A stretch of 64,000 bases of DNA. Origin: Oscillospiraceae bacterium (lineage in GTDB: Bacteria > Bacillota > Clostridia > Oscillospirales > Ruminococcaceae). The DNA lies in assembly GCA_021769525.1 (NCBI GenBank), contig JAETSQ010000018.1:1-64000 (forward strand), given 5' to 3'. The notes under the pieces are model-generated. The model searched no databases and had not been told where the DNA came from. It saw only the letters and a program-made list of their open reading frames with translations. This document shows, piece after piece, positions 4,772-24,592 of this stretch; position 1 is the stretch's first letter; each line of letters opens with the position of its first letter. The translations under genes were made by a program, and so were the position numbers.

Positions 4772-4810
4772 ACCGCTCCCGAAATACTGACTGTAAAAAA
4801 AGGAGTTTCT

Positions 4811-4876
4811 GTCGAAAAAGTTTTTTCGACAAGTTGAAGCGCCCGCCGGAAAGCAAGCAGCTTTCCGGCGGGCGCT
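4811..4876. terminator. Terminator region between convergent genes
   Basis: GTCGAAAAAGTTTTTTCGAC palindrome (4811-4830) plus perfect 16-bp stem AGCGCCCGCCGGAAAG / CTTTCCGGCGGGCGCT (4838-4876). Confidence 0.75.
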
Positions 4877-4903
4877 CTCTGTGCCTTTCATCTACACCGG
4901 GTA

Positions 4904-5476
4904 TCAGGGCTTTACGTAGCCGTGGGTGCTCATGGTGTAGCCTTCCTGCTCGGTCACCGTCAGGTACAGGACCCGGCCGTCCTCCTGGAGCTGAACATAG
5001 CAGACCCCGTCCACAAACTTATCGGTGATCTCCAGCTTCTGGTCGTGGTAGTAGACCCATACGCTGCCGTCCTCCAGGTAGGCCACCTCCGGGGAGTCCA
5101 GATGCTCCAGGATCTCCTCCTCGGTGAGGGGGCGCTCTTTGCCAAAGAGCCCGATGGCGACACCGCCGCCGGCGACGGAGCGGGGCTCGCCGTTTTCGTC
5201 CTCGTAGGAGAGGGTGTAGCTTTTGCCCCGGATGTCCAGGACGGCATTGGTCTGGTCCCCGTGGATCCAGACCTGGACTTTGCGCTGGATGCCGCCGATG
5301 TCGGCGGCGTAGGCAACGCTGGCCATAGCCACGATCAGCACTGCTGCGGCGCAGAGGGAAACCAGCCGGCGGACCGGCAGAACTTTTACATGATCCATTG
5401 ATGCAACCTCCATAAGATCGTGCTCGGAGGCCCGGAGCAGGGAAAATGCCCGTTTGTACCGTTCCTTGTCAGTCAT
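4904..5476 (-). CDS. Membrane-anchored putative anti-sigma factor
   Basis: Short N-terminal cytosolic segment, one TM helix, extracytoplasmic domain; overlaps the end of the upstream ECF sigma gene. Confidence 0.6.
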   Translation of the reverse strand: MTDKERYKRAFSLLRASEHDLMEVASMDHVKVLPVRRLVSLCAAAVLIVAMASVAYAADIGGIQRKVQVWIHGDQTNAVLDIRGKSYTLSYEDENGEPRSVAGGGVAIGLFGKERPLTEEEILEHLDSPEVAYLEDGSVWVYYHDQKLEITDKFVDGVCYVQLQEDGRVLYLTVTEQEGYTMSTHGYVKP

Positions 5477-5984
5477 TGTTCCAGTCCTCCTTGAGTGTGT
5501 TTTTCAGAAGCGCTCTCGCCCGGCTCAGCCGGCTTTTGACGGTGCCGCCGGGGCACCCCAGGATGCGGGCGATCTCCCGGATGTCGTAGTCCTCGTAGTA
5601 AAACATATGGATGACCACGCGGTACTTCTCCTCCAGGCCCATGACGGCCTCAAACAGCCGGCTGTCCTCCGGCTCCTCAAAGGGGAGCGCCGCCATCTCC
5701 TCCTCCCATCCGGCCCGCTTGCGCCGCCAAAAGGAGGCTCGTATGTCCTTGGCCCGGTTGATGACCACGCGGATCAGCCAGGCCCGGATGTGCTCCTCGC
5801 TCTCAAAGTCCTTTTTGGCGCCGCAGTACCGGATGAGGGTATCCTGCACCGCGTCCTCGGCGTCCTCCCGGTTCTGGCACACGGTGAAGGCGATGGCAAA
5901 CAGCCGGTCTGTGTAGGTCCGAAAGATCTCTTCTGTTGTCAGTCTCACAAAAACGCCTCTTTTCTCTCTTGAAGGTCCCTTCAC
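5469..5984 (-). CDS. RNA polymerase sigma factor, ECF (sigma-70 family)
   Basis: EDAEDAVQDTLIRY (region 2), YDIREIARILGCPGGTVKSRLSRARALL (region 4). Start may be an internal codon. Confidence 0.9.
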   Translation of the reverse strand: MKGPSREKRGVFVRLTTEEIFRTYTDRLFAIAFTVCQNREDAEDAVQDTLIRYCGAKKDFESEEHIRAWLIRVVINRAKDIRASFWRRKRAGWEEEMAALPFEEPEDSRLFEAVMGLEEKYRVVIHMFYYEDYDIREIARILGCPGGTVKSRLSRARALLKNTLKEDWNND

Positions 5985-6141
5985 CTACAATACGGAACAA
6001 AGAGAAAAAAGGTTGCAAAAAAGAGAAAAAACTTTGCGGCCCGCCCCTCCCGATTTGGCCGTATCACTTGACACGAATTTGCACAATTGTTAGAATTATA
6101 CAGGGTATCTTTGCATCATCACCTACAGGCTGGGGGAGATC

Positions 6142-9100
6142 TTGATGTACCATTGTCACACGATATTTTACCTGGTGGGACAGCAGGCCGGGACCTTTGA
6201 CCCGGTGCGGCAGCTTGTCCCCCCGGAAGGCTTTACCCACGAGCTGCTGGAAAGCAGCGAGCCGGAAAGATCCTTGGCCGCCAGGGCCAGCGTCATCCTG
6301 GCTGACCTGCGGGGCTCCGACCCGGTAAAGACCGCCCACGCGCTGGCCTCCTGGAAAGCTCCGGAGGCGCAGCTCATCCTCCTGGCGGAGGAGGCCCAGA
6401 CAGCGGAACTTTTCCAAAACCTCCCGCAGCAGACCACCGATGTGTGGAACCTGCCCATGGGGCCTGCCCAGTGGCGCTTCCGCCTGGGGAAATGGCAGCA
6501 GGACTGGAAGTACGCCAAGGACGCCTGGCAGACCGGCCAGTACCTGGAGGCCACCATCAACGCGTCCCCCAACCTCATCTGGTACAAGACGAAGGACGGC
6601 ATCCACGAGAAGGTGAATGACAGCTTCTGCGCCACCGTGGGCAAGACCAAGGCCCAGGTGCAGGGCCGGGGCCACGCCTACATCTGGGATGTGGAGCGGG
6701 ACGATCCCGTCTGCATCGAATCCGAGCGGCTGGTGATGGAAAGCCGGGAGACCCATATCTCGGAGGAGACCATCCAAACCGGCGGGGAACAGAAGATCCT
6801 CACCACCTACAAGTCCCCCCTCTATGACCTGGACGGCAGCGTTATGGGCACGGTGGGGATAGCCATCGATACTACCCTGGAGCGGATCTATGCCCAGGAG
6901 ATCACCCGCAAAAACCAGATGCTGGAGACCATCTTCACCACCATGGACTGCGGCATCCTCTGCCATTCTCTGGATGGCCTCCGGGTCCTCAGCGTCAACC
7001 AGGCCGCTCTGCGCATCCTGGACTACGACTCCCCGGAGAAGCTGGCCGCCGAGGGGCTTTACACCGTATCCCTCCGGGTGGTGGAAGAGGACCGCATCCA
7101 GCTGCAAAAGAGGATCACCACCCTGGAAAACGTGGGGGACACGTTCAGCATGGATTACCGCATCCTCCACCGGGACGGCAGTCTCCTGCACATTATGGGC
7201 AGCTTTAAGCTGGCCGAAAAGGACGGGGAGCGCTTCTACCAGCAGTTCCTCCTGGACTGCACCGCCCGGAAGCGGCAGGAAGCCCAGGACCAGCGGCGGC
7301 AGATGGAGCTGATCCACGCCCTCAGCGTGGATTACAGCCTGGTCTGCTACTTCGATCTGGATACCGGGAAGGGCCGGACTCTGCGCATCAGCGGCTGCGG
7401 CCACAATATCCTGGAGCCCATCTTCTCCGGGGAGCTGGTGCTGGAGGACTGCGTTGGGCGGTACATCGATGTGGGGGTCTATCCGGAGGACCGGGAGGCC
7501 CTGCGCCAGGCTGTCCTGCGGGAAAATCTCCTCCAGGAGCTGCTGAAAAAGCCCGTGTTCCACCAGAACTATCGCACCGTCTGCTGCGGAAAGACCCGGT
7601 ACTTCCAGATGAAAACGGTCCGCGCCGGGGATTGGAACGAGAGCCACGGGATCGTGCTGGGCTTCCGGACCATCGATGAAGAGACGCGGGAGGACCGGGA
7701 GAAGAAGGCCCTCCTGGAGGACGCCCTTTCCCAGGCCAACCAGGCCAACCGGGCCAAGAGCGTCTTTCTCTCCAATATGTCCCACGACATCCGCACCCCC
7801 ATGAACGCCATCATCGGCTTCACCGCCCTGGCCATCACCCACATCGACCACAAGGAGCAGGTGGAGGAGTACCTGAAGAAGATCATGACCTCCGGCAACC
7901 ACCTTCTCAGCCTCATCAACGATGTGCTGGATATGAGCCGCATCGAGAGCGGCAAGATCCACCTGGAGGAGCAGCCCTGCAGCCTGCCGGAGATCCTCCA
8001 CGAACTCAGGAACATCATCCAGGCGGACATCCACGCCAAGCAGCTGGACCTCTACCTGGACGCGGTGGATGTCCGCAACGAAGAGATCTGCTGCGACCGC
8101 CTGCGGCTGAACCAGGTGCTCCTGAACCTCCTCAGCAATGCGGTGAAGTACACCGGTGCCGGGGGCATGGTCAGTGTCAAGGTGGTGGAGCGCTCCGGCG
8201 CCCCCGCCGGCTATGCCAACTACGATTTCCACATCAAGGATAACGGCATCGGCATGAGCGAGGAGTTCGTCACCCATATCTTCGATCCCTTTGAGCGGGA
8301 GCGCAACTCCACCATCAGCGGCATCCAAGGCACCGGCCTGGGCATGGCCATCACCAAGAACATCGTGGATATGATGAACGGCACCATCGAGGTGAAGAGC
8401 AAGCAGGGGGTGGGGACCGAGTGCATCGTCTCCTTCACCTTCCGCCTCCACTCCGGCACAAAGGAGCCTCTCACCATTCCGGAGCTCAGCGGACTGCGGG
8501 CGCTGGTGGTGGACGATGACTTCAACACCTGCGACAGCGTCTCCTGTATGCTCCAGGAGATCGGCCTGCGGGCGGAATGGACCCTTTCCGGCAAGGAGGC
8601 GGTGCTGCGCACCCGCCAGGCCGTCATGCGGGACGACCACTACTTTGTTTATATCATCGACTGGCTGCTGCCGGATATGAACGGCATCGAGGTGGCCCGG
8701 AGGATACGCCAGGAGGTGGGCCACGAGGCGCCCATCATCGTCCTCACCGCCTACGACTGGTCGGACATCGAGGACGAGGCCAGGGAGGCCGGCGTCACTG
8801 CCTTCTGCAGCAAGCCCATCTTCCTTTCCGAGCTCCACGGCTGCCTGCACTCCATCCTCTGGGCGGACCGGCAGAGCAACGCCGTCACCGGAATGCGAAA
8901 GGCCTCCCGCCCCGGACACATCCTGCTGGTGGAGGACAACGAGCTCAATCAGGAGATCGCCGTCACCATCCTGGAGGAGGCGGGCTTCACCACCGAGGTG
9001 GCGGAAAACGGCCAGATCGCCGTGGATATGGTGAAAAATTCCAAGCCCGGCCAGTTCCAGCTGGTGCTGATGGATGTACAGATGCCGGTGATGAACGGCT

Positions 9101-20803: not shown

Positions 20804-21457
20804 ATGAAGTCCATCGATGAAATCCTCCCTTTCCTCTCTGTGCTCATCGAGGGGATGGCAAAACATTTTGGGGAACGCTGCGAATTTGTAGTACACGACT
20901 ATTCCAAAGGACCTTCCAGCATCGTTGCCATCGTCAATGGCGATATTACCGGGCGCTCCATCGGCCACGGCGGCGAAAAGATCGGCCTGCCCGTTATGGC
21001 GGGACAGGACGAGCCAAGCGGAAAATTCAACTACATCTCCCAAACCTCCGACGGGCGCTTTCTTCGTTCCAGTACGGTCTATCTCCGGGGAGATGAGGGT
21101 GAGGTCCTGGGCGCTGTCTGCGTCAACTTTGACATCACCGAGTTGATCCGTTCCCGGAATTTTATCGAACAGTTTATCCGCCTGGATCTGAACGACACAC
21201 AGCGCCAGCAGATGCAGTCCGCTTTCTGCGAGAATGTGGATGATTTCCTGCTCGGAATGATTAACGATTCCATCAAATATGTCGGTGTGCCGGTGGCTCA
21301 TATGACCAGGGATCAAAAGGTGGAGGGGATCAGCTACCTCAACCGCCGGGGGGCCTTCCGGGTCAAGAATGCCGCTACCATTGCCGCTAAGTATTACGAC
21401 ATCTCCCGCTACACCTTGTATAATTACCTCAACGACATTGAGGACGCACGGGGGTAG
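20804..21457 (+). CDS. YheO/DauR-like PAS + HTH transcriptional regulator
   Basis: N-terminal YheO-PAS-like region (HFGERCEFVVHDYSKGPSSIVAIVNGDITGRSIG), C-terminal HTH (RRGAFRVKNAATIAAKYYDISRYTLYNYLND). Confidence 0.85.
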   Translation: MKSIDEILPFLSVLIEGMAKHFGERCEFVVHDYSKGPSSIVAIVNGDITGRSIGHGGEKIGLPVMAGQDEPSGKFNYISQTSDGRFLRSSTVYLRGDEGEVLGAVCVNFDITELIRSRNFIEQFIRLDLNDTQRQQMQSAFCENVDDFLLGMINDSIKYVGVPVAHMTRDQKVEGISYLNRRGAFRVKNAATIAAKYYDISRYTLYNYLNDIEDARG

Positions 21458-21774: not shown

Positions 21775-22367
21775 CACAAAAGGCACAGGCTCTTTCCGCC
21801 TGTGCCGTTGTTTTATTCACTTGTGGCCTAGATCTCGTTCAGTTTCCGGTAGTTGGGTTTTCCGGTTGCTGCCTGCAATCTATGGTCTGCGGTCCTACCG
21901 CTTTTCTGGCTTTGTGTCTGCCTCTTTTTGCGTTCCATCTCCGGGAATCAGTTCCCGTCCCATTCCAGGCACTGGGTCAGATCCGTCCAGCCTGATGGCG
22001 TCTGCCATCTCCCAGGGGTTCCCCCCTGCCTGGGTGCGAAGCCTGCCGCTGGCACTGTGGTCTTATCAGAAGTTACCGAACACGAAGGCAGCCCCGGACT
22101 GACGGCGGCCAGTCCCAAAGCCCTGCTGGGAAACCGTGTCCATTGGACTCACCTCTCTCCTTCCAAACTTCTCGTGGCCTTTGCCAGGAACTGCTTAGTA
22201 CATTGGGCTCGGTCCTTTCGCTTTTTCTTCGCAGCGCTCAAAGTACCTAGTACATTGGAGTATCCCTTTCTTCGGTCCACTTTTCCGTCTGTACAGAAAC
22301 TGCCAGGTACATGGGAACCAGTCCTTCCTTTCGGCTTCTTGGTCTCATCCATTTCCTTTTTGTTTCT
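21775..22367 (-). ncRNA. Candidate large structured non-coding RNA (~590 nt)
   Basis: Near-consensus minus-strand promoter (22374-22402), intrinsic terminator (21778-21806), no credible ORF, many short perfect hairpins with tetraloops, e.g. CAGGGG-GGAA-CCCCUG, GAUGGC-AGAC-GCCAUC, CGGGAA-CUGA-UUCCCG, GCGGU-AGG-ACCGC. Confidence 0.7.
21778..21806 (-). terminator. Intrinsic terminator of the candidate ncRNA
   Basis: Minus strand GGCACAGGC-GGAAAGA-GCCTGTGCC followed by TTTTGTGTTT. Confidence 0.8.
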
Positions 22368-22373
22368 GTCTAT

Positions 22374-22402
22374 AGGATACCACAACTTCCCCGCCTTGTC
22401 AA
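22374..22402 (-). promoter_or_regulatory. Strong sigma-A promoter of the candidate ncRNA
   Basis: TTGACA (22402-22397) - 17 nt - TATCCT (22379-22374), with A/T-rich upstream sequence. Confidence 0.75.
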
Positions 22403-22506: not shown

Positions 22507-23742
22507 TCAGGCGTTGTTCACCGGCGGGTAGCCGAACAGCTCGTTGATGCGGCTGTGGAGCGTTTCCGCCAGCTTGGGAACAGGATAGAGGGTCCCCACC
22601 TGGAACTCCACGGTGTGTAGGGCATCGCCCACGGTGGGGATGAAATATTCCTGGGTATCGTCATAGAGGAGCGCGCCGGTGGCGAAGTCTGCGATGTTGC
22701 AGAATTTCAACTGCGCGGTATCCGGGTCTATCCTTCCCTCCCGGATGGCGGACTCCAGCAGCTCCGGGTAGCGGAAATCCCAACGGTAGAGGTTGGCGGA
22801 TTCCTCAATGAAGTAGGAATAGGAGCCTATCTCAAAATTCTCGTTGGTTTCCCCGTGACCGGCAATCTTCCCGTCACTGTCGTAGGCTAGGAAGTAATAT
22901 CTTTTGTCAAACAGAAGGTGGTCCGCCAGCTTTTCCCCAGCCAGGAGGTTTTCCAGAAGCGTCTGCATCTCCTGCTGGCCGCTGGTACCGGTGGTGTACA
23001 GGGGGATGAGCCGGGTGTTGTCCCCTGTCACTCCCGGAACATGGATGATGTCGGTACCTTTGAGCTCCGGGGTCTCCGCCAGGTAGTAGCTATCCATAAT
23101 AATGTCCACTGAGGTTTTCTCCTCCTCCGGCTGGCTGGGGGCGGACCGGGGGAAGAAATTCCTTAGCTGGGCCAGGGTATCCCCGGAGCTTTCCAGCGCA
23201 CCATAGCATTCCCTGTCCACCCAAAAGCCGGTGCCACCCTCAACAAGGGGGAAGACTATGGTGGAAAAGACGGCCTCCCGCTCCTCCGGGGGGAAGCCTT
23301 CGGGCACGGCCATACACTGGATGTTGACCTGCTGCTCCCGGTTGTAGGAGAGGCGGATGAAGTCAAAGTCCTCCGCCATCCTTTGCCAGTCGATCCCCTG
23401 GCCGTCCTCCCGGTCCCATTCAAAGGCACAGGCGGCAACGGCCAGTTTTTCCCGCCGGAAACGCCGGCCCAGGGCTTTTATCAGGGCTTGGCCCTCCGGG
23501 GTGTTCTTGTCCAGGGCGGTCTCCAGGCCCCCGGCAAAGAGGACGATTTCATCCGGCTCCCCCAGCAGCTCGGCGGGCTTTGTGACGGGGCGGAGGCCGT
23601 CCGGCTGGGATTCCGGCTCGCTTTGGCTGGGCGGCGCCGGGGTAAAAGGGGCGGTCGGGGCGGGCTCCTGCGGTGCACAGGCGCAGAAGGTGAGCAGCAG
23701 AGCCAGCAGCGCCGCAGACTGTTTTTGACGGCTTTTCTTCAT
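22507..23742 (-). CDS. Lipoprotein of unknown function
   Basis: MKKSRQKQSAALLALLLTFCACAPQEPAP lipobox; Pro-rich linker; unrecognised globular region. Confidence 0.75.
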   Translation of the reverse strand: MKKSRQKQSAALLALLLTFCACAPQEPAPTAPFTPAPPSQSEPESQPDGLRPVTKPAELLGEPDEIVLFAGGLETALDKNTPEGQALIKALGRRFRREKLAVAACAFEWDREDGQGIDWQRMAEDFDFIRLSYNREQQVNIQCMAVPEGFPPEEREAVFSTIVFPLVEGGTGFWVDRECYGALESSGDTLAQLRNFFPRSAPSQPEEEKTSVDIIMDSYYLAETPELKGTDIIHVPGVTGDNTRLIPLYTTGTSGQQEMQTLLENLLAGEKLADHLLFDKRYYFLAYDSDGKIAGHGETNENFEIGSYSYFIEESANLYRWDFRYPELLESAIREGRIDPDTAQLKFCNIADFATGALLYDDTQEYFIPTVGDALHTVEFQVGTLYPVPKLAETLHSRINELFGYPPVNNA

Positions 23743-23900: not shown

Positions 23901-24176
23901 ATGCTGGCAAAAGCCTTTGTTGATAACGCTAAGGTGATGGCAAAGGGGCAGGTAACGATCCCCAAAGACATCCGCAAGGTGCTGGGGGTATCCAGCGGCG
24001 ACCGCGTTTCCTTTGTTGTAGAGGGGAATACGGTGCGGCTTATCAATTCCGCTGTTTACGCCATGCAGATCCTCCAGCAGGAAATGACCGGAGAGGCCCA
24101 GCGGGCGGACCTTGCCTCCGACGAGGAGGTCATTGCCCTTGTTCGAGAACTGCGCAGTGAGGACGATCTGCCATGA
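23901..24176 (+). CDS. AbrB/SpoVT-domain antitoxin
   Basis: AKVMAKGQVTIPKDIRKVLGVSSGDRVSFVVEGNTVRL; 4-nt overlap with downstream PIN gene. Confidence 0.85.
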   Translation: MLAKAFVDNAKVMAKGQVTIPKDIRKVLGVSSGDRVSFVVEGNTVRLINSAVYAMQILQQEMTGEAQRADLASDEEVIALVRELRSEDDLP

Positions 24177-24592
24177 GGGTCCTGATCGACACCAATGTTC
24201 TTATTTCCGCGGCGCTCAATCCGGACGGCGTCCCCTGCAAGGCTTACCAAAAAGCCGCGCTATACCCGAACCGGGGATTGATCTGCGAGCAAAACGTAGA
24301 GGAAATGCGGCGGATCTTCTATAAAAAGTTTCCTCACCGCATGGCGGCTTTGGAAAAGTTTCTTTCGGTGGCGCTCCTGTCCCTGGAGCTTGTGCCGATC
24401 CCGGAGGATCAACTGCCCGCGGAAGGGCTCATCCGGGACCTGAAGGACCGGCCGCTCCTCCGGGCAGCTGTAGCGGCAAGTGCGGATATTTTTCTTACCG
24501 GTGATAAGGATTTCCTGGAGGCGGATGTAGAAAAGCCGAAAATCATGACTCCGGCTGAATTTTTGCAGACTAAAACCGGCAGCAGCTTCTGA
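24173..24592 (+). CDS. PIN-domain toxin
   Basis: MRVLIDTNVLISAALNP ... DIFLTGDKDFL PIN acidic motifs. Confidence 0.87.
   Translation: MRVLIDTNVLISAALNPDGVPCKAYQKAALYPNRGLICEQNVEEMRRIFYKKFPHRMAALEKFLSVALLSLELVPIPEDQLPAEGLIRDLKDRPLLRAAVAASADIFLTGDKDFLEADVEKPKIMTPAEFLQTKTGSSF

Follow-up and report, generated by a model that had tools for sequence, protein, structure and literature searches.

Several kinds of bacterial RNA contain very short ORFs. In dual-function small RNAs (RNAIII/hld and SgrS/SgrT), a transcript resembling a regulatory RNA contains a short ORF led by a Shine-Dalgarno (SD) sequence. In the leader-peptide attenuators (trp and tna), the stop codon of a short ORF overlaps or adjoins the terminator hairpin. 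Lambda bar is a minigene that acts in cis on bacterial mRNAs. The cis-acting minigenes axe-txe mg2 and the LEE4 mini-ORF are SD-led ORFs of 2-6 codons near the 5' end, where ribosome occupancy protects the transcript; acting in cis, such minigenes either protect mRNAs or tune them (PMC8708949). The STAB-SD or 5' SD stabilisers (cryIIIA, ermC, and hbs) carry the SD close to the 5' end. There, SD occupancy by the ribosome stabilises Gram-positive and also E. coli transcripts, sometimes without translation (PMC7509114). OLE, ROOL, and GOLLD are structured, self-contained RNAs of several hundred nucleotides, and ROOL is encoded by phages and prophages (PMC12286853). A structured-RNA survey of five bacterial genomes found sORF candidates in other organisms (PMC6429828). 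Here, we analyzed a locus in a window of 64,000 nt from an Oscillospiraceae bacterium (contig JAETSQ010000018.1; the whole stretch is meant by "the window"). Comparison of sequences strongly supports the identity of the locus as a long, divergent representative of a new family of free-standing, translated-looking RNAs, which extends across the order and into some other Clostridia.

Transcribed unit and micro-ORFs of the window

The transcribed unit (21775-22367, minus strand, ~590 nt) consists of a 5' minigene array, a structured body, and a terminator, as judged from the fold, the homologues, and the alignment. The promoter TTGACA-17-TATCCT (22374-22402, minus strand) has TTGACA at 22402-22397, a 17-nt spacer, and TATCCT at 22379-22374, with an extended -10 TG; the predicted transcript start is 22367. 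The intrinsic terminator (21782-21806, minus strand) has a 9-bp stem, a 7-nt loop, and the T-rich tail TTTTGTG. The GC content of the unit is 0.541, compared with 0.60 in the surrounding 20 kb, and the fold is better than those of shuffled sequences (z = -2.56; 0/100 shuffles as good). Homologues with 73-75% identity were found in two genomes of the same genus (Angelakisella). The alignment of the three Angelakisella copies keeps the promoter (the TTGACA box and TGGTATNNT in L043 and L044), the terminator stem, several islands, and stretches of the form GAAAGGGAUACUCCAAUGUACUAG. A 27-nt element, AGCGGTAGGACCGCAGACCATAGATTG (21876-21902, minus strand), contains a hairpin at 21901-21889, and is identical in the three genomes. 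The long ORFs that overlap the unit (78 aa in sense; 191 aa in antisense, twice) gave no match in Pfam, contain stops in the Angelakisella relatives, and were rejected as genes. Considering the promoter, the ~590-nt extent, the terminator, the GC dip, the fold, and the broken long ORFs, both the unit and the absence of a long gene are therefore real.

Three neighbouring regions were also noted. A YheO-like PAS plus HTH regulator gene (20804-21457, plus strand) is convergent with the RNA unit. The gene upstream of the unit (22507-23742, minus strand) encodes a lipoprotein-like protein of 411 aa without a Pfam match. The adjacent ORFs at 23901-24592 (plus strand) resemble an AbrB-type antitoxin and a PIN-type toxin, as judged by eye only.

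An initial annotation, made from the letters alone, had proposed the same promoter, a clean terminator, a GC content lower than the surroundings, and a self-contained, structured, long RNA unit of unknown class; the promoter, terminator, homologues, and fold all agree with this description. The cmscan search against Rfam gave no match for the window at the gathering threshold and nothing convincing at E up to 10, and the homologues matched no family at gathering or relaxed thresholds. The initial annotation had not recognised the unit as a tmRNA; ARAGORN gave only a tRNA-Leu in the window, and there was no Rfam tmRNA match. The suggested resemblance to OLE, ROOL, and GOLLD was not borne out, either by cmscan or by the collections of mobile elements: two family patterns scanned over 2.9 million viral contigs gave 0 matches, and blastn against phage and plasmid collections gave no family match. 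The annotated "purine-rich GNRA-like loops" turned out to be largely SD sequences (GAAAGGG, CGAAAGGA, and GGAGAGAGG), which sit ~8-9 nt before the AUGs of very short conserved ORFs. The statement that ~590 nt lack a credible ORF is therefore valid for long ORFs only. The label "non-coding" is not supported either. The conserved hallmark of the RNA is a set of micro-ORFs, each led by an SD, whose start and stop codons are kept.

The GAAAGGGAUACUCCAAUGUACUAG-form stretches consist of an SD sequence, a spacer, and AUG-UAC-stop. Minigene 2 (AUG UAC UAG; 22247-22270, minus strand) has its SD GAAAGGG at 22270-22264 and its codons at 22255-22247; this 24-nt stretch is identical in the distant genome G148, with nearly identical copies in L002/L043 and L003/L044. 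Minigene 3 (AUG UAC UAA; 22195-22220, minus strand) has its SD CGAAAGGA at 22220-22213 and its codons at 22203-22195. Its counterparts, with peptides written here up to the stop codon, are MY in L044 and MYSKDKE in L043. Micro-ORF 4 (22063-22160, minus strand) has the SD GGAGAGAGG at 22160-22152 and a 25-codon ORF, MDTVSQQGFGTGRRQSGAAFVFGNF, at 22143-22063, with a hairpin GGACUG...CAGUCC inside and the tandem stops UGA UAA (22068-22063) at its end. L043 has a 25-codon ORF in the same place; L044, as read from the alignment, has a GTG start and a middle frameshifted by an indel. A 23-aa ORF with the SD context and the tandem stops of micro-ORF 4 is also present in L098 and L117. A weak candidate, possible micro-ORF 1 (MYLAVSVQTEKWTEERDTPMY; 22247-22312, minus strand), has the SD AAAGGAAGGA upstream and a copy of the motif, and shares its stop with minigene 2; it is not kept in the aligned L043 or L044. 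In the window and its relatives, the minigenes combine an SD at the proper distance, an AUG, a stop within a few codons, and conservation.

The minigene motif is not readily explained by chance. The core motif AAGGN6CCAATGTACTA had 0 matches in 100 shuffles of the window. A scan with AAGGRNNNNTCCAATGTAC, a pattern that contains no stop codon, gave 23 matches in 16/397 family genomes, and the reversed control gave 0. An in-frame stop follows directly after UAC or one codon later in 19/19 of the matches inside such units (MY, MYK, MYN, MYR, and MYT). The matches in four of the 16 genomes (G057, G105, G151, and G386) lie in or adjoin ordinary genes, and are apparently due to chance.

Canonical form and distribution of the family

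The scan of 84,980 species genomes with AAAGGRN{4,5}TCCAATGTACTAR identified 73 stretches, nearly all in Oscillospirales. They were mostly labelled Oscillospiraceae, Faecalibacterium, Flavonifractor, Pseudoflavonifractor, Faecousia, and unclassified Clostridia; the Streptococcus and Peptoniphilus loci look like chance matches. Many of the stretches are compact: a minigene, ~45 nt, the SD GAGAGGTTA, and a second ORF of 7-10 codons running into a terminator. In the canonical member, a sigma-A-type promoter is followed within ~20 nt after the -10 box by an SD and then by a minigene of 2-4 codons (such as MY, MYR, MKT, and MI). Next come a variable body of ~40-1000 nt and an SD-led last ORF of 7-10 codons, typically the 9-codon MLDxKxxxK; the stop codon of this ORF belongs to the terminator stem.

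The 3' end is under two constraints. The triplet that precedes the CCC core of the terminator was read in 60 nucleotide-anchored loci; it is TAA in 31, TGA in 18, TAG in 6, and AAA in 5, and the AAA loci have TAA two bases earlier. Among 37 diverse sequences, the stop and the 3' arm pair as UAA/UUA in 15, UGA/UCA in 13, and UAG/CUA in 1. Changes on both sides were seen in 10/13 terminator stem pairs, a number reached by 0/500 shuffles, and slid controls were far lower. The identity of the stops and their covariation with the partner indicate that both base pairing in the stem and a stop codon at the triplet are required. The Leu codon of the last ORF is synonymously variable (TTA, TTG, CTA, CTC, and CTG), which would argue for amino-acid selection; the Asp codon is always GAT, which points to a probable nucleotide constraint too.

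At the 5' end, the -35/-10 spacer is 17 nt in 87/89 family promoters, as found with a search that had a mild preference for this length, and most SDs start 8-19 nt downstream of the -10 box. The codon after the minigene AUG varies (Y, I, F, K, N, R, W, and T), and one member (L182) retains the SD without the minigene AUG; these minigene peptides may therefore not matter. A switch between the SD and an anti-SD, with the SD pairing to a C-rich stretch after the minigene, beat shuffled sequence but not swapped partners (p = 0.16), and was rejected. Some promoters (L085, L126, L155, L176, and others) share an upstream element, TTCTCnnTTTTGCACA, ~40 bp before the -35 box. Compact members have CTTATGGAACATyCCATC, with a partial palindrome, adjoining the -35 box. 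Such recurrent elements suggest that a shared regulator may act on family members. The bodies of a subset of long forms (L037, L091, L159, L171, L173, L182, and L183) have a hairpin of the CUCGCUUAnGAG type, which reads CCCGCUUAAGGG in L037 and is mostly located 65-95 nt before the last SD. A CUCGCUUAAGAGA hairpin was found in a subset only, and was rejected as a common feature of the body.

A covariance model of the 3' element only (R1) was used for independent validation. It matched 50/297 genomes of the window genome's order, in 31/146 genera and about ten families. In the class-wide sample, it matched 6/243 genomes, and the families of all 6 lie outside the order. Among the new loci, 29 of 30 were readable, and all 29 have a last ORF closing at the terminator, nearly always M(M)LDxKxxxK. 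The first ORF has at most 4 codons in 21 of the 24 loci with a recognisable promoter and SD, none of which had been selected by its 5' end, compared with 25% of the body AUGs (Fisher p = 3e-8). These first ORFs include MYR, MYK, MYNQ, MNR, MKT, MRN, MI, and MW. The class-level loci agree, with MEE, MY, MYK, or MR together with MLDIKSEQK. The family members are free-standing, with their own promoter and terminator, and a genome often has several of them. Three units in tandem are present in each of L037 and L038, and L147 has five tandem copies of the 3' element within ~3 kb (4775-7599, minus strand). Literature searches on the last-ORF peptides, Faecalibacterium sRNAs, and large RNAs, covering a library of 5.4 million papers, found neither the peptides nor the class.

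In Faecalibacterium (genus g81), a homologue of 680 or about 1150 nt is present in 28/31 genomes, including 22/22 of high quality. All 25 loci examined have the identical order of micro-ORFs: MVDMEPAQxGQTVGxR, MKxxxRxxxFE, MY or MI, another of the MY type, MKxxx..K, and MTPKK, the last of which directly precedes the terminator. In 15 species with the short form, the ORF lengths, read from start to stop, vary by whole codons only; the spacers between the micro-ORFs take all three residues modulo 3. RNAalifold placed ORF 1 and ORF 2 inside hairpins, with a few covarying pairs (e.g. AGCUC/GAGCU to GGAUC/GAUCC). Structure and frame-kept micro-ORFs therefore coexist in these RNAs.

The window copy is tied to the family through its genus relatives and through the 24-nt minigene identity with G148 (L005/L034). 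L034 and L120 have both the minigene motif of the window and a last ORF (LNIEEQK) closing in the terminator stem, and were scored by R1 at E = 0.006-0.011. The L005/L034 unit is ~2 kb long, very A-rich, and ORF-poor, and its region also has a THF riboswitch and a 6S RNA. Among the three weakest BLAST hits of the family search, L005 is real, and L004 and L006 look unrelated. R1 gave no hit on the window copy (the best match in its own genome had E = 1.0), and no last ORF with its stop in the terminator stem was recognised there. The minigenes do lie in the first part of the transcript, with minigenes 2 and 3 at 110-170 nt from the predicted start, not directly at the start as in canonical members. 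Of the canonical design, the window therefore has the minigene half only, and its RNA is a divergent long member that has an array of minigenes but in which no last ORF was recognised.

Proposed ribosome docking and alternative explanations

We hypothesize that ribosomes dock at the 5' end and that the 3' hairpin and translation of the last ORF are in competition. Ribosomes would dock at the 5' minigene and terminate at once, and would not plough through the body. The docked ribosome might serve as a removable 5' cap against 5'-end-dependent decay; the SD-only member L182 would fit docking rather than a peptide. At the other end, a ribosome finishing the last ORF would cover or melt the 5' arm of the terminal hairpin, and translation termination and 3'-end structure would be mutually exclusive. 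The lifetime of the RNA body, and hence its activity, would be set by the state of translation. In the long forms (Faecalibacterium and Angelakisella), the extra micro-ORFs may repeat this device along the RNA. As a whole, the identity of a new family together with 5' docking and a gate formed by the 3' ORF is the best explanation, and we give it a probability of about one half. More tentatively, these RNAs might form a "ribosome-gated" class, in which a micro-ORF guards each end and the lifetime or structure reports ribosome activity; such a free-standing sensor of translation in gut Clostridia is conceivable, and we would not yet call it probable.

The RNA might instead be a micropeptide mRNA, in which MLDxKxxxK would function as a peptide of 9 residues, with its expression tuned by the 5' minigene in the way that mg2 tunes txe. 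The conservation of MLDxKxxxK across families and orders, with a synonymously variable Leu codon, is in line with this idea, and a cis-acting minigene has precedent (PMC8708949). However, the last peptides of the compact forms are quite different (MEPTFEKE, MSDPIIH, and MLEPNNF), the long forms put hundreds of body nucleotides between the two ORFs, and the window copy has no recognised last ORF. We consider a micropeptide mRNA unlikely.

Less likely still is a ribosome or tRNA decoy, which would trap initiating ribosomes or drain peptidyl-tRNA by repeated two-codon minigenes, and slow translation when induced. The strong SDs are followed by a stop at once, one RNA can have as many as four sites of the minigene type, and a genome can have several copies, with five in tandem in L147; all of this would suit a decoy, and the dose would rise with the number of minigenes in each RNA and of RNA copies in each genome. 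When overexpressed, minigenes can become toxic through peptidyl-tRNA drop-off (PMC8708949). Yet the second codon varies, which leaves no single tRNA as the target, and the compact form has one minigene and a longer, terminator-tied ORF that would be superfluous for a decoy.

In nearly all copies, the stop lies inside the terminator stem, an arrangement that is classical for antitermination dependent on the ribosome. The terminator would then be blocked by a ribosome positioned at the last stop, and RNA polymerase would read into the next gene. The next genes, however, are randomly oriented (27 on the same strand and 37 on the opposite strand) and seem unrelated, and the next gene in the window is convergent. 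The family RNA is therefore not the leader of one gene, and such transcription attenuation is improbable.

The least probable reading is a large ncRNA that is purely structural, like OLE, ROOL, and GOLLD, and whose purine-rich loops would contain start and stop codons by chance. Length, fold, the covarying Faecalibacterium hairpins, and the 27-nt Angelakisella element may be cited for this reading; it is opposed by the missing Rfam match, the SD-start-stop kept across independent loci, and the frame kept through length changes. A type I toxin was set aside (the peptides are hydrophilic), as was a CsrA decoy. The class looks new, and it looks like a translated regulatory RNA and not a silent structural one.

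Significance and comparison with known systems

The family occurs in many dominant gut genera, including Faecalibacterium, Flavonifractor, Pseudoflavonifractor, and Angelakisella, and is not in Rfam. No gene finder has a limit low enough for its micro-ORFs of 2-9 codons, and translated RNA of this kind may thus escape notice as an entire layer. Inside the terminator stem, the stop codon covaries with its partner and is thereby constrained twice, which is unusual and makes a possible switch between translation and structure directly testable by point mutation.

The family shares with OLE, ROOL, and GOLLD a structured and self-contained organization, and the window unit is in their size range. 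In contrast to them, it matches no Rfam model, was not found in the phage collections and viral contigs searched, and has SD-led micro-ORFs. Like trp and tna, it has a short ORF ending at the terminator hairpin; unlike these attenuators, it has no conserved downstream gene, and the orientation is random. The position of the SD close to the 5' end resembles the STAB-SD cases, which have no obligatory start-stop minigene and form no free-standing RNA family. The SD-led minigene near the 5' end resembles axe-txe mg2 and the LEE4 mini-ORF. These minigenes are leaders of ordinary genes, whereas the family RNA is free-standing, with no ordinary gene and with its final micro-ORF in the terminator. 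Similar to the dual-function small RNAs RNAIII/hld and SgrS/SgrT, the family has its own promoter and terminator and contains short SD-led ORFs, whose translation is judged from evolutionary evidence. It differs from them in having two to ~8 micro-ORFs, mostly of 2-12 codons, with stops built into stems.
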